Assembly (NCBI GenBank): GCA_027029065.1
Contig: JALVGO010000247.1
Location: forward strand, 1,919 to 22,635
Direction of reading: 5' to 3'
DNA length: 20,717 nt
Source: Sulfurovum sp.
Lineage (GTDB): Bacteria > Campylobacterota > Campylobacteria > Campylobacterales > Sulfurovaceae
Shown here in pieces: positions 128-20,717 of the stretch. How positions within the stretch are numbered: the stretch's first letter is position 1; every line of letters starts with the position of its first letter. Made by a program: the position numbers and the translations under genes. The notes under the pieces were generated by a model. It worked only from the letters and a program-made list of their open reading frames with translations. It did no database searches and had not been told where the DNA came from.

Positions 128-249
128 CCTACTTTTTTAGAAAAAGTAGGCAAAAAGCGTCACTTCTGCAATTGTGCGGGCGATGCTTTATGCGCCGTGC
201 TTCGCACATATGGGCGCAACAGCATCTGCACAAAGAGTGCAGAAGTGAC
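128..249. repeat. Structured intergenic element, copy 1 (five covarying helices plus a side hairpin)
   Basis: A T-rich hairpin (128-137 with 141-150) is followed by a long nested fold. P1 is 159-170 with 238-249 (12 bp). P2 is 172-177 with 228-233. A GGGC bulge follows at 178-181. P3 is 182-187 with 221-226, and P4 is 191-196 with 213-218. P5 is 197-200 with 204-207, closing a TTC loop. An ATATG bulge lies at 208-212. All pairs are Watson-Crick. A second copy at 2068-2192 has a different sequence but the same fold, with compensatory changes in every helix. Because there are no G-U pairs, the active strand cannot be told. It lies between two minus-strand genes of the nitrogen cluster. I do not recognise the family; REP/MITE-like DNA or a structured RNA are both possible. 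Confidence 0.85.
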
Positions 250-286
250 AACGGAAGTTACATAATCAATGTTCAATATTAAGAAA

Positions 287-382: not shown

Positions 383-1990
383 TCAATGTCTCTGATTCCC
401 CGCAAAGAAGTTCCCTGCAAGTCCCAATGGTACCACGGTGCGGTAGAAGAGGTATCGCCCGGCAAGTTCAGATGCCAAAGCACCGAGTGTGGAAACTACA
501 AGTGTGGCTATCGCCAAACCTGCCAAACCACTGGCGGTAAAGAGGATGGCAAGCAGCGGCAGTGCCAGCCCAAAGGCTGCCAATGAATAGACTCTAAACT
601 TCTTGATGCTGCCAAAGTGTTCTTGCAGCAGGATGCGGCTTCGGTTGTACTGGTAGTAGAGCGGGTCTTCTTTATCCAGATGGCGGTAGAACATCACCTC
701 CTCAAAGATCACCAGTGCCTGTCCCATGCCGGCAAGCAGGGTAACAGCAAGCAGTACCATCGCCCCCTGTGCGCCGTTGCTTGCAAGCAGGGCGGTAGCG
801 ACAAGCAGAAAGCCGACATAGCCTGAACCGAAGAAGCGTTTGGTGGTACTCTTGCGGTTCCAGCTCGGACGTGCTTTGATGCGGTAGATCATCGACTGTG
901 CGTAGATGCCGTAGAGCCCGATACCAAGGGTGAGTGCTTCAAGCAGGAGCAGAAGGGCACCGCCGACATTGAGAAAGTAGAGTCCGGCTACAACGGTCGC
1001 CAGACCGGTGTAGGCTCCCAAGGCGATCGCTTCACGGCTAAGCCATGAGGTTTTCCAGTTTTTCATGGCACTCATCGCTTTGCCTGGTCGTCCAAGGTGC
1101 ATAGCTGAAAGGGGCAGTCCGACAGCGGCAGGCAGGAATGCCAAGATCGCCATGACAAGATTTGGTTTTGGCAGGTTGAATCCAAGCGAATAGAGCAACT
1201 GTCCCAAAAAGAGTGCCAGAAATGCTCCCATCGATACCTGTGTCAGTACCGTCATAAAGACAAGCGGCAGTTCGGCATGGGCAGGCTTGAGGATGTGCTC
1301 ATCAGCCGGGCGTACCTCCTGACCTTCGGGAAGTTCGGGCAGGGTGTAGCGTGTGGTGGGTTTGGTGATCTCGATGTCAGGCAGGTGGGGAGCGACTCCC
1401 TCTTTTGCCATATCTTCTGCAAGCCACTGTTCCACATTGACCGCCTCTATCTCGATGGCACCACCGGGACACGCCTGCACACACGCAGGGGTCTGACCCG
1501 CTTCGAGTTTGTCCACACACATATGACATTTGGTGACGATGCCGCGGTCAGGGTTGAAGACAGGCACCTCGTAAGGACAGTTCCATGTACAGTACTGGCA
1601 CCCGATACAGCTTGGGTCATCGTGCCAGACAATGCCGTTGTCAAGTTTGATGTAGCTCTCAGTTGGGCAGCCGCGCAGACACTCGGGGTCGATGCAGTGG
1701 TTACAGCTCATCGAGTTGAAAAGCTGGAGTGTGTCAGGGAAGCTGCCTGTCTCCATCTCACCCACACGCCGCCATTTGATCTCATCGGGGTTGGCGTTTT
1801 GTTCGTTACATGCCACTTCACAGCAGTGACATCCCACACAGGCGGTGGCATCGAAGTGGAAACGGTACTGCTCTCCGGGTTTGAGCTCGGGGATGTCGAT
1901 GGTGTAGTTGCCGCACTGCATACCGGTGTCGTTCTTGTGGTTGATGAAGCTCTCTAATGGTGTGTGTTTGCTTAATGGTTCAACAGCCAT
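383..1990 (-). CDS. Fused four-cluster ferredoxin (DmsB/NrfC-like) and DmsC-type membrane anchor
   Basis: This is a 535-residue electron-transfer subunit of a molybdoenzyme-type complex. Residues 45-180 carry four cysteine groups for [4Fe-4S] clusters: C51/C54/C57/C61, C96/C99/C104/C108, C128/C131/C134/C138 and C155/C158 with C170/C174. After a linker, residues about 242-535 are strongly hydrophobic with roughly eight membrane segments and contain the DmsC-like signature MHLGRPGKAMSAMKNWKTSW (297-316). In DMSO reductase these two parts are separate proteins. The N-terminus has no twin-arginine or Sec signal, so the cluster domain probably faces the cytoplasm and links the quinone pool to a cytoplasmic oxidoreductase. 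An AGGA at 2001-2004 (minus strand), 10 bases upstream, supports the start. Context (nirA, narK) suggests nitrate assimilation. The domain assignment is firm; the physiological partner is inferred. Confidence 0.9.
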   Translation of the reverse strand: MAVEPLSKHTPLESFINHKNDTGMQCGNYTIDIPELKPGEQYRFHFDATACVGCHCCEVACNEQNANPDEIKWRRVGEMETGSFPDTLQLFNSMSCNHCIDPECLRGCPTESYIKLDNGIVWHDDPSCIGCQYCTWNCPYEVPVFNPDRGIVTKCHMCVDKLEAGQTPACVQACPGGAIEIEAVNVEQWLAEDMAKEGVAPHLPDIEITKPTTRYTLPELPEGQEVRPADEHILKPAHAELPLVFMTVLTQVSMGAFLALFLGQLLYSLGFNLPKPNLVMAILAFLPAAVGLPLSAMHLGRPGKAMSAMKNWKTSWLSREAIALGAYTGLATVVAGLYFLNVGGALLLLLEALTLGIGLYGIYAQSMIYRIKARPSWNRKSTTKRFFGSGYVGFLLVATALLASNGAQGAMVLLAVTLLAGMGQALVIFEEVMFYRHLDKEDPLYYQYNRSRILLQEHFGSIKKFRVYSLAAFGLALPLLAILFTASGLAGLAIATLVVSTLGALASELAGRYLFYRTVVPLGLAGNFFAGNQRH

Positions 1991-2067: not shown

Positions 2068-2192
2068 CTACTTTTTTTAGAAAAAAGTAGGCAAAAAAGC
2101 GTTACTTTTGCAATCGTGCGGGCGGTTATTCCGGCACCTTGCTTCGCAAATATGGGTGCCTGCATAACCTGCACGAAAAGTGCAAAAGTAAC
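2068..2192. repeat. Structured intergenic element, copy 2
   Basis: This has the same architecture as the element at 128-249. The T-rich hairpin is 2068-2077 with 2081-2090. P1 is 2101-2112 with 2181-2192, P2 is 2114-2119 with 2171-2176, and the GGGC bulge is 2120-2123. P3 is 2124-2129 with 2164-2169, P4 is 2133-2138 with 2155-2160, and P5 is 2139-2142 with 2146-2149 around a TTC loop. The ATATG bulge is 2150-2154. Relative to copy 1, nine base pairs changed on both sides (2 in P1, 1 in P2, 3 in P3, 2 in P4, 1 in P5) and none changed on one side only. It lies between nirA and the ferredoxin/anchor gene. Confidence 0.85.
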
Positions 2193-2200
2193 ACAAAATT

Positions 2201-6111: not shown

Positions 6112-7749
6112 ATGTCCAAGCAGAATATTGAAACATCCGGATTTACACTTGCCAAGGGTACACAACTCAAGGGTGATGACTTTTTTGAAGTGAAGGTGAT
6201 GGAGAACATTACCGTTGCGGTAGTCTGTGACGGAGTAGGCTCTTCTATGCATGGTGCCGAAGCGGCAAAACGTACGACACAGTTTTTGGTGCAGTCACTG
6301 AAGAACCGTCCGAGAAGCTGGAGTCTGGAGAAGTCTATACGCCACTTTATTGAAAACATCAACCGGGTACTCTACCTTGAGTCGATGGAACAGTATGAAC
6401 GGCAGGAGTTGGTGACGACTCTGACACTTGTGGTCATCGAGGGTGACAGGCTCTACGGTGCCAATGTCGGTGACAGCCGTATCTATCTCTTCCGCAACGG
6501 AATGCTGGCGCAACTCTCTTCTGATCATGCAATGGATGAGGAGGGGATGGAGAATGTGCTTACCGCTGCTATTGGGCTTGAGGAGACAGTAGAACCGTAC
6601 TACTTCGAGAACAACCTGCAGCCGGGTGACCGCATACTGCTCTGTAGTGACGGACTCTACAATGAACTTGCCAAAGAGGAACTTGCAGAGGGCATCAGGG
6701 TAGGGGCATCACACCTTGTCAAAAAGGCAAGCAGAAAGCATAATGATGATCTGCCCGATGACACTACCGCTGTGGTGATCGAGATTAAGGAGCTTGACCC
6801 GAGACTCAAACTCAAGCAGACAGAACTGATCATCAAGGAGCAGTACAAGGCAGGAGAGGAGATAGACGGCTATAGGCTTCTCAAACCGCTGATTCAGAAC
6901 AACCGCACCTGGCTGTGTGAGAACAAAGGGGTGCAGTATGTCATAAAGTTTACCCCGGCAGAAGCGGCGGAAGATGAAGTGATGCTCGATCTGTTCGTCA
7001 AAGAGGTCTGGATGGCAAACCGCCTCAAGGCAGGCTTTTTCCCAAAGGCGGTCATCCCTAAAAAGAGGACGCACCGCTACTACATCATGCGCTATATTGA
7101 CGGGATATCGCTCAAGGAGTACACTGCCAAAAAGCCTCTCTCGGTTGACCTTGGTGTGGAACTGGCACACTTTTTGCTGAAGATGTCACAGTTTTTGATG
7201 AAGCACAACCTTGTACATGGAGATATCAAGCCTGAAAATATCATCGTAACCAAACGCAAAGAGAAGATAGTATTTAAAATGGTTGATTTTGGCAGTATTA
7301 CAGAGGCATATTCTGCTGTATCACGGGCGGGAACACCTTCCTACCTTGCACCCGAGCGTTTTGCGCAGGCACCTATTACCGAGCAGACTGAGATCTATGC
7401 TATAGGCGTGACACTTTATGAGGTTCTGACACAGAAGTTTCCGTTTGGAGAGATTGAGCCGTTTCAGACACCAAGCTTTGAAAAAGCGCCCAAACACCCC
7501 TCTACACTCAACCCCAAGATACCGGAATGGTTTGAGAGTGTCATCTTGCGTGCCATAGAGACAGATCCTGACAAACGCTATCACAACTACTCGGAGATGC
7601 TCTACGAGATAGACAACCCCCAAAAGGTACAGCCCTATTTTGACCATCAGACCTCATTTATAGAGCGGCATGAGAAGATGGTTTACAAGGTAGGGTTTAT
7701 TACGATGTTTATACTCAATATTGTGCAGCTTCTCTATTGGAACAGATAG
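6112..7749 (+). CDS. Bifunctional PP2C phosphatase / Ser-Thr kinase, membrane-anchored
   Basis: This 545-residue protein fuses opposing activities. Residues about 10-225 form a PP2C phosphatase with metal-binding motifs CDGVGSS (D40), NVGDSR (D121), CSDGLYN (D180) and DDTT (D217). Residues about 250-500 form a Hanks-type kinase: VIK lysine K279, helix C glutamate E298, catalytic HGDIKPEN (D371, K373, N376), DFG (392-394) and the APE motif (413-415). The glycine-rich ATP loop is degenerate, without GxGxxG. A single hydrophobic segment near 526-543 would anchor it with the catalytic domains in the cytoplasm. A kinase gene also lies next to the nitrate transporter in the Pseudomonas aeruginosa assimilation cluster (PA1782, from memory), so a role in nitrate uptake or assimilation is inferred. 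The stop is one base from the convergent mltG stop. Confidence 0.93.
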   Translation: MSKQNIETSGFTLAKGTQLKGDDFFEVKVMENITVAVVCDGVGSSMHGAEAAKRTTQFLVQSLKNRPRSWSLEKSIRHFIENINRVLYLESMEQYERQELVTTLTLVVIEGDRLYGANVGDSRIYLFRNGMLAQLSSDHAMDEEGMENVLTAAIGLEETVEPYYFENNLQPGDRILLCSDGLYNELAKEELAEGIRVGASHLVKKASRKHNDDLPDDTTAVVIEIKELDPRLKLKQTELIIKEQYKAGEEIDGYRLLKPLIQNNRTWLCENKGVQYVIKFTPAEAAEDEVMLDLFVKEVWMANRLKAGFFPKAVIPKKRTHRYYIMRYIDGISLKEYTAKKPLSVDLGVELAHFLLKMSQFLMKHNLVHGDIKPENIIVTKRKEKIVFKMVDFGSITEAYSAVSRAGTPSYLAPERFAQAPITEQTEIYAIGVTLYEVLTQKFPFGEIEPFQTPSFEKAPKHPSTLNPKIPEWFESVILRAIETDPDKRYHNYSEMLYEIDNPQKVQPYFDHQTSFIERHEKMVYKVGFITMFILNIVQLLYWNR

Positions 7750-19824: not shown

Positions 19825-20717
19825 TCACTGCAAAAGATACATGATCACGGCTGGCATACCGGGTGACATGCACTGATGGCTGTTGGTATTGAGGATGATC
19901 TGATAGGTTTGTGTATATGCAACATCGTCGATAAAATTTTGCACTCCAATATTGTCAGTATAGAGATTGCAGTTGTAAGCCAGGTAGAGGTATTGCAGAT
20001 TTGTCAGATTTCCGATTTCTGTAGGGATAGCGCCACTTAGTTGGTTGTTGTCCAAAAAGAGGGACTGCAGATTTGTCAGATTTCCAATTACTACCGGGAT
20101 TGTGCCGCTCAGTTGGTTGTTGTCCAAATCGAGGTACTGCAGATTTGTCAGATTTCCAATTGCTGCCGGGATTGTGCCGCTTAGTTGGTTACTGTACAAA
20201 TAGAGATACTTTAGATTTGTCAGATTTCCAATTTCTGTAGGGATAGCGCCACTTAGTTGGTTGTTGTCCAAAAAGAGGTACTGCAGATTTGTCAGATTTC
20301 CGATTGCTGCCGAGATTGCGCTGCTTAGCTGGTTATGGCCTAAATTGAGAGTTTGTAAATTTGTCAGATTTCCGATTGTTGCCGGGATTGCGCCGTTCAG
20401 TTGGTTTTCATATAAAAGGAGGTACTGCAGATTTGTCAGATTTCCGATTGCTGCCGGGATTGTGCCGCTTAGTTGGTTACTGTACAAATAGAGATACTTT
20501 AGATTTGTCAGATTTCCGATTTCTGTAGGGATAGCGCCACTTAGTTGGTTGTTGTCCAAAAAGAGGTACTGCAGATTTGTCAGATTTCCGATTGCTGCCG
20601 GGATTGCGCTGCTTAGCTGGTTATGGCCTAAATTGAGAGTTTGTAAATTTGTCAGATTTCCGATTGTTGCCGGGATTGCGCCGTTCAGTTGGTTTTCATG
20701 CAAAAGGAGGTACTGCA
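19825..20717 (-). CDS. Leucine-rich-repeat protein, 5' end outside the window
   Basis: The frame is open through the right edge, so the start is missing; about 297 codons are seen. Ten consecutive 24-residue repeats of the type LxxNQLSGxIPxxIGNLTNLQxL are visible, the plant-like LRR class. The protein ends with a non-repeat cap (about 50 residues) containing two cysteines, C in AYNCNLY and C in NSHQC. Repeats of this class form a curved solenoid used for protein binding. Units fall in a 4-unit superrepeat (288 bp): units 1-4 and 5-8 are almost identical. Without the N-terminus, export or anchoring cannot be judged. An extracellular or surface adhesive role is plausible for this class but not shown. 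Confidence 0.85.
   Translation of the reverse strand, partial: QYLLLHENQLNGAIPATIGNLTNLQTLNLGHNQLSSAIPAAIGNLTNLQYLFLDNNQLSGAIPTEIGNLTNLKYLYLYSNQLSGTIPAAIGNLTNLQYLLLYENQLNGAIPATIGNLTNLQTLNLGHNQLSSAISAAIGNLTNLQYLFLDNNQLSGAIPTEIGNLTNLKYLYLYSNQLSGTIPAAIGNLTNLQYLDLDNNQLSGTIPVVIGNLTNLQSLFLDNNQLSGAIPTEIGNLTNLQYLYLAYNCNLYTDNIGVQNFIDDVAYTQTYQIILNTNSHQCMSPGMPAVIMYLLQ
19825..20717. repeat. 72-bp coding repeats with 288-bp higher-order period
   Basis: The segment encoding GNLTNLQ recurs every 72 bp with near-identical DNA (plus strand GATTTGTCAGATTTCC). A larger period of 288 bp is visible: the sequence around 20413 recurs around 20701. Near-identity at synonymous sites suggests recent duplication or conversion inside the gene. 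Confidence 0.85.

Follow-up and report, generated by a model that had tools for sequence, protein, structure and literature searches.

The enterobacterial repetitive intergenic consensus, ERIC, measures about 127 bp. The element described here resembles it in being a long imperfect intergenic palindrome of similar length, with few copies per genome and no coding capacity, but it occurs in another phylum and has a two-part layout with a separate 5' hairpin, and the likeness is one of description and not of sequence. The single-strand transposon ends of the IS200/IS605 type are imperfect hairpins too; their bulges are conserved, and they stand in one orientation behind a fixed motif in the flank. 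For our element neither a transposase gene nor a second end was found. GTAG REPs and REPINs are hairpin repeats for which movement in trans is assumed, and the element often has a GTAG beside its A-rich spacer. However, this GTAG lies within a covarying hairpin and is not a fixed tag, copies number 1-10 per genome, no copy flanked the RAYT genes examined and no conserved unpaired GTAG was seen. Both GTAG and CGTC repeats have been described in Sulfurovum sp. NBC37-1; in that study the CGTC REPs have no known dedicated transposase and carry an unpaired CGTC tag, a stem of 8-9 bp starting with AT and a tail CCA (Di Nocera 2013, PMC3733652). The element shares with them the Sulfurovum host, the lack of a known dedicated transposase and, in most copies, a core that also begins with CGT[CT]. 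It differs in that its GT[CT] is paired in helix P1 and its core of about 94 nt has five helices; it has no unpaired CGTC tag, its stem starts vary and its ends are mostly GACAA, AACAC or GACAG.

The stretch that was analysed (the window, 20,717 nt of a contig of Sulfurovum sp., JALVGO010000247.1) contains two copies of the element on either side of a gene for a DmsBC-like protein (Table 1). Homologues of this gene occur in 88 of 175 Sulfurovaceae genomes, and its product shows 98% protein identity to the homologue in one of them (G001). In our opinion the element is probably a palindromic DNA repeat of the Sulfurovaceae that occupies intergenic sites, is mobile but non-autonomous, and behaves much like REP, ERIC and MITE sequences.

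Table 1. Features of the two element copies and of the gene between them, in window coordinates.
Feature	Position	Strand	Basis
Copy 1, 5' hairpin P0, CCTACTTTTTTAGAAAAAGTAGG	128..150	+	sequence, fold; outer arms covary between copies
Copy 1, A-rich spacer CAAAAAG	151..157	+	sequence
Copy 1, core bulged hairpin	158..251	+	103.4 bits, model R1 (copy itself in model)
Copy 1, core helices P1; P2; P3	159-170/238-249; 172-177/228-233; 182-187/221-226		recounted pairs
Copy 1, core helices P4; P5	191-196/213-218; 197-200/204-207		recounted pairs
Copy 1, unpaired GGGC; TTC; ATATG; T	178-181; 201-203; 208-212; 227
Copy 2, 5' hairpin P0, CTACTTTTTTTAGAAAAAAGTAG	2068..2090	+	sequence, fold
Copy 2, A-rich spacer GCAAAAAAG	2091..2099	+	sequence
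Copy 2, core bulged hairpin	2100..2194	+	102.5 bits, model R1 (copy itself in model)
DmsBC-like gene (fusion of iron-sulfur Fer4_11 domain and DmsC-type anchor)	383..1990	-	ORF; Pfam Fer4_11 and DmsC above cut-off

The unit consists of an AT-rich 5' hairpin (P0), an A-rich spacer and a long bulged hairpin (the core). P0 is built around a T-run, a short loop and an A-run, flanked by outer arms (CCTAC/GTAGG, TCTAC/GTAGA, GATAC/GTATC, CCACC/GGTGG and others). This T-run/A-run layout was observed in 62 of the 83 distinct copies, 39 of which have fully complementary five-base outer arms, in eight different arm sequences. P0 lies at most 16 nt from the core in 74 of the 84 copies tested, AAAA[GT] stands immediately 5' of the core in 80 of 86, and the core mostly starts with CGT and ends with [GA]ACA[A/C/G]. 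The GTAG that is common in the 3' arm of P0 changes together with the opposite arm (to GTATC, GGTGG or GTAAC) and is therefore no fixed cut site. Additional hairpin modules were recognised by eye in the P0 loop or between P0 and the core (L020, L022, L158, L161; L048, L155, L159). Low-complexity repeats of the CTCCCTGCTCCCTACCACCTACTCCCTGA and GCGTTCAGTG.TGAGCGCT types adjoin both window copies (316-381 and 2230-2270), and repeats of these types also adjoin element copies in relatives.

The same nested, bulged fold is present in both window copies (128-251 and 2068-2194), with the helices listed in an earlier sequence-only reading of the window. A script recount of the five helices in the two copies returned the figures given there, nine double changes and no single-sided change in 34 pairs; the range proposed in that reading takes in the 5' hairpin, from 128 on, but helices are counted there only from 159. 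With RNA folding the cores have folding-energy z-scores of -5.5 and -5.9, and of -7.5 and -6.3 when the 5' hairpin is included, and in each case none of 200 shuffles folds as well; DNA folding parameters give z-scores of -5.5 to -6.5 for either strand. In an alignment of 19 copies, 95.7% of the cells in paired columns can pair; shuffles reach 84.9%, and sliding the partners lowers the share to 47.9% or less. Covariation beyond descent, which would agree with the selection on a folded molecule proposed in the same reading, was found: in 78 non-redundant copies (left after removal of identical rows and of two copies carrying long insertions) five of 31 structure pairs, but none of 4155 other pairs, covary at E<0.05 in a tree-aware test. 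The null was formed by 40 alignments with substitutions redistributed over the tree of copies, and some of these sequences had also served to derive the structure. The two window copies represent two subfamilies, and each is nearly identical to a copy elsewhere; the differences between them are therefore differences between subfamilies and not the in-place history of one duplication.

The reading had not recognised the family, and in the window no Rfam 15 family reaches its gathering threshold; the best permissive match at copy 1 was NiCo-AnGGAG (18.8 bits vs 64.5), and at the loci of four relatives only weak matches, far under threshold, were obtained. A search with the covariance model, the check suggested in that reading, recovered many copies in relatives. 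Model R1, built from 19 copies, gave 112 matches in 36 of the 175 Sulfurovaceae genomes (1-10 copies per genome) and no match at the cut-off used in the other 139; weak matches may have escaped the stricter filters applied to large genome sets. When 199 genomes were sampled evenly across the order, four had a match, all of them among the 36 carriers. Of 100 model matches at the loci, 86 copies were kept, 11 being places fetched twice and three being antisense, with scores near 23 bits. These 86 comprise 82 of the 112 genome matches, the two window copies and two copies in a record of Sulfurovum mangrovi. A sequence pattern from the first copies led to 17 loci in GTDB species genomes, 16 of which are Sulfurovum, Campylobacterales or Epsilonproteobacteria records. 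The pattern matches in Flavobacterium (L014, without such a fold) and in a viral sequence (L001, which looks coding) were attributed to chance, and no hit was obtained when viral contigs were searched with a neighbouring protein of the window. Among the open-licence PMC papers searched no description of the element was found, only short sequence strings in unrelated-looking papers. The family of structured mobile repeats is real; most likely it is a palindromic DNA element of the REP/ERIC/MITE kind, with an unusual two-part build.

Evidence for mobility comes from the sites that the copies occupy, for which the gene names were assigned from one representative each. Thirteen copies from 13 genomes, all in one orientation, precede an M20 dipeptidase gene; nine copies from eight genomes lie between purL and purH, in both orientations; five are found upstream and six downstream of the DmsBC-like gene, both flanks of which, when compared among relatives, are recurrent insertion sites; four are located at thiC, with a fifth at 384 nt from a thiC gene; and three at gyrA. 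The same intergenic sites are occupied by different subfamilies, and a subfamily recurs at different sites. At the aligned positions copy 2, which lies upstream of the DmsBC-like gene, does not differ (distance 0.00) from L022, a copy found at the gyrA site in G012; for copy 1, on the downstream side of the gene, the distance to L145, a copy near gyrA in G011, is 0.02. In G001, the closest genome as judged by the DmsBC-like gene, copy 1 of the window is present, and a different repeat, of the GTAGGGTGTTGT type, takes the place of copy 2. That repeat (L166) is an inverted, REPIN-like GTAGGGTGTTGT...ACAACACCCTAC pair upstream of the gene. The mean distance over all copies was 0.261 for the same site in different genomes, 0.213 within the same genome and 0.295 otherwise, and site thus explains little.

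Nine matches were found in G023, seven of which are only 0.00-0.06 apart and have different downstream flanks; of the diverged copies, L142 lies at 0.065-0.104 from the seven and L140 at about 0.2. Since five of the nine adjoin, upstream, another repeat that they have in common, they could have been copied with this neighbour. At one site the element is present in G011, and only 12-13 nt separate the genes in G076 and G122; five other genomes carry a different hairpin-like element there, and the ortholog in G094 (L197), which has a core match at that place, was left out of the filled/empty comparison. A target duplication or an exact empty site could not be read among the relatives compared, because they are too diverged. 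With its dispersed copies, unrelated flanks and lack of coding capacity, the family has the properties of a non-autonomous mobile repeat, and no gene-bearing autonomous copy was seen in the inspected part of the full and partial copies from G023, G018, G024, G026, G065 and G022. As for a match to a known MITE or REP family, the outcome against which the sequence-only reading had set its proposal, the element is a REP/MITE-like repeat in kind, but no named family matched.

The conserved fold could alternatively be that of a cis-regulatory or other structured RNA (a leader or a 3' UTR element) that is selected as RNA, which we consider quite unlikely. The covariation above the phylogenetic null would fit such a role, as would the dipeptidase site, where all 13 copies are in sense and 12 of them lie at 19-88 nt before the gene (at -6 for the remaining copy, as the ORF rule places it), and other copies precede start codons as well. 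Nevertheless, the neighbouring genes vary in function and in orientation (28 pairs -/-, 25 +/+, 15 -/+ and 11 +/-, with one side unseen for seven, by a rough ORF rule), without a clear orientation bias, by which a general role as terminator or leader was rejected. The jumping of subfamilies between sites and the 139 family genomes without a match at the cut-off used also argue against an RNA. In a wobble-tolerant RNA, one-sided changes are expected to yield G-U more often than A-C. Counted over 29 of the 31 pairs, such changes amounted to 24 G-T versus 43 A-C cells, and to 24 versus 37 after merging of near-identical copies (p 0.12), without G-U excess; with all pairs included the counts were 126 G-T and 43 A-C. 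The two column pairs left out (20-69 and 6-86) were chosen after inspection of the data, one being a G-T beside the internal loop and the other containing a column taken as slipped in the alignment. The G-T beside the internal loop, present in 61 of 78 copies, would rather favour an RNA. A tRNA control gave nine G-T versus two A-C, from only 12 distinct tRNAs of the fetched loci. The balance of G-T and A-C is thus weakly suggestive of selection on a DNA structure. Of the earlier proposal of a folded RNA or single-stranded DNA under selection, the fold and the covariation are real, but a new functional RNA class is unsupported, given copies that are scattered and mobile and have no clear orientation bias relative to genes. 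The family is of interest for computational RNA discovery, as an example of how a strong covariation signal can belong to a mobile DNA hairpin and not to a functional RNA.

Near-perfect stems could also have arisen without selection, if template switching copies one arm onto the other and produces double changes in a single step, and the absence of a G-U preference in 29 of the 31 pairs would agree with this. Yet copy pairs that are at most 4% apart show 16 single and no double pair changes, and double changes exceed singles only from about 8% divergence upward (the copy pairs being non-independent). Singles first and doubles later is the order that would be expected of compensating change and not of one-step arm copying; moreover, the bulges and the G-T mismatch are conserved and were not copied away, which makes template switching very unlikely. 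A one-way transcription terminator acting on the minus strand is highly improbable, even though the minus-strand core is followed by a T-run (CGCTTTTTGCC) and both window copies sit past the 3' ends of minus-strand genes, since the right-hand genes are almost evenly divided (41 plus vs 43 minus, by the ORF rule) and the spread between sites would stay unexplained. A terminator scan did not report the element, which says little because the scan permits only loops of 3-8. The mobile-repeat reading has weak points of its own: no transposase is linked to the element, the 13 same-orientation copies at the dipeptidase site would also fit a local function, and the singles-first order fits any compensating structure, RNA included.

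If the element is moved by an enzyme encoded elsewhere, the tyrosine transposases (RAYT, Y1_Tnp) of the host genomes would be the obvious candidates. Y1_Tnp matches are present in 127 of the 175 family genomes, and the bulged hairpins without coding capacity and the GTAG in the 3' arm of P0 are in line with a REP of this kind. We nonetheless regard this as unlikely. Y1_Tnp is no commoner in carriers of the element (24 of 36) than in other genomes (103 of 139), and 12 carriers, in assemblies of unstated completeness, have no match, among them G140 with eight copies. In 20 Y1_Tnp loci from carriers, several of which are cut by contig ends, no convincing core match was found; the single R1 match beside a RAYT gene (L119; 10.9 bits, E=2) is at chance level and was not counted. 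Of 21 tyrosine transposase genes of the Sulfurovaceae (loci L106-L125), 14 have GGTCAGGTGA upstream and six have TCACCTGACC downstream, both unlike the element. The covariation of GTAG with its opposite arm is a further argument against a RAYT-moved REP.

P0 is not restricted to the element. Its pattern was found in 55 of the 175 Sulfurovaceae genomes, with 20 places in G024, which has no core-model match. At inspected loci P0 precedes other cores, e.g. GTCACCAC...GTGGTGAC stems with a CTCGAATCGCT interior. At the thiC site of G046 P0 and the spacer are present and the core is absent, and at the gyrA site of G006 a P0-like hairpin occurs alone. It follows from P0 with other cores or without a core that P0 may be an independent module or a target, although the coreless places may also reflect loss of the core. 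Elsewhere in the phylum the short pattern of the 5' module gave single matches that are mostly due to chance, because a reversed control also matches often, but those in G540 and G589, which are not among the 175 genomes, look real by eye.

On the reading as a mobile repeat, a trans-acting enzyme may recognise the core as folded single-stranded or cruciform DNA, and shape and bulges would then be kept while the letters of the stems drift. The 5' hairpin and A-tract might be a docking or target sequence usable by different cores. A wider and more tentative proposal, which we think doubtful, is a superfamily of mobile DNA recognised by shape, in which a 5' palindrome with an A-tract docks interchangeable bulged hairpins that move as single-stranded DNA, by an enzyme that would be neither a known RAYT nor linked to the element. 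The family combines recurrent natural insertion at given sites with a modular build, one 5' hairpin being common to several cores, and lends itself to the question of what enzyme mobilises small palindromes that have no transposase.

Some other repeats and genes deserve mention. In G024 the inspected copies of a second core family, the one with GTCACCAC...GTGGTGAC stems (L301, L304, L308 and L312), are nested mid-way in arms that by eye look like the CGTC type, and this composite is repeated within that genome. At L119 (G046:C179, 1-250) repeat units of GTCGAAAGACCCTATAAAATTTCTACTATTGTAGATTT, which look like a Cas12a-type CRISPR array, lie directly upstream of the tyrosine transposase gene. 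In the window itself, a single plus-strand ORF (6112-7749) combines a PP2C-type phosphatase domain and a protein kinase domain (Pfam), two ORFs on from a NarK-like transporter that was assigned by eye. Finally, a minus-strand ORF (19825-20703) encodes a leucine-rich-repeat protein (Pfam LRR) with closely similar repeats of 24 residues.
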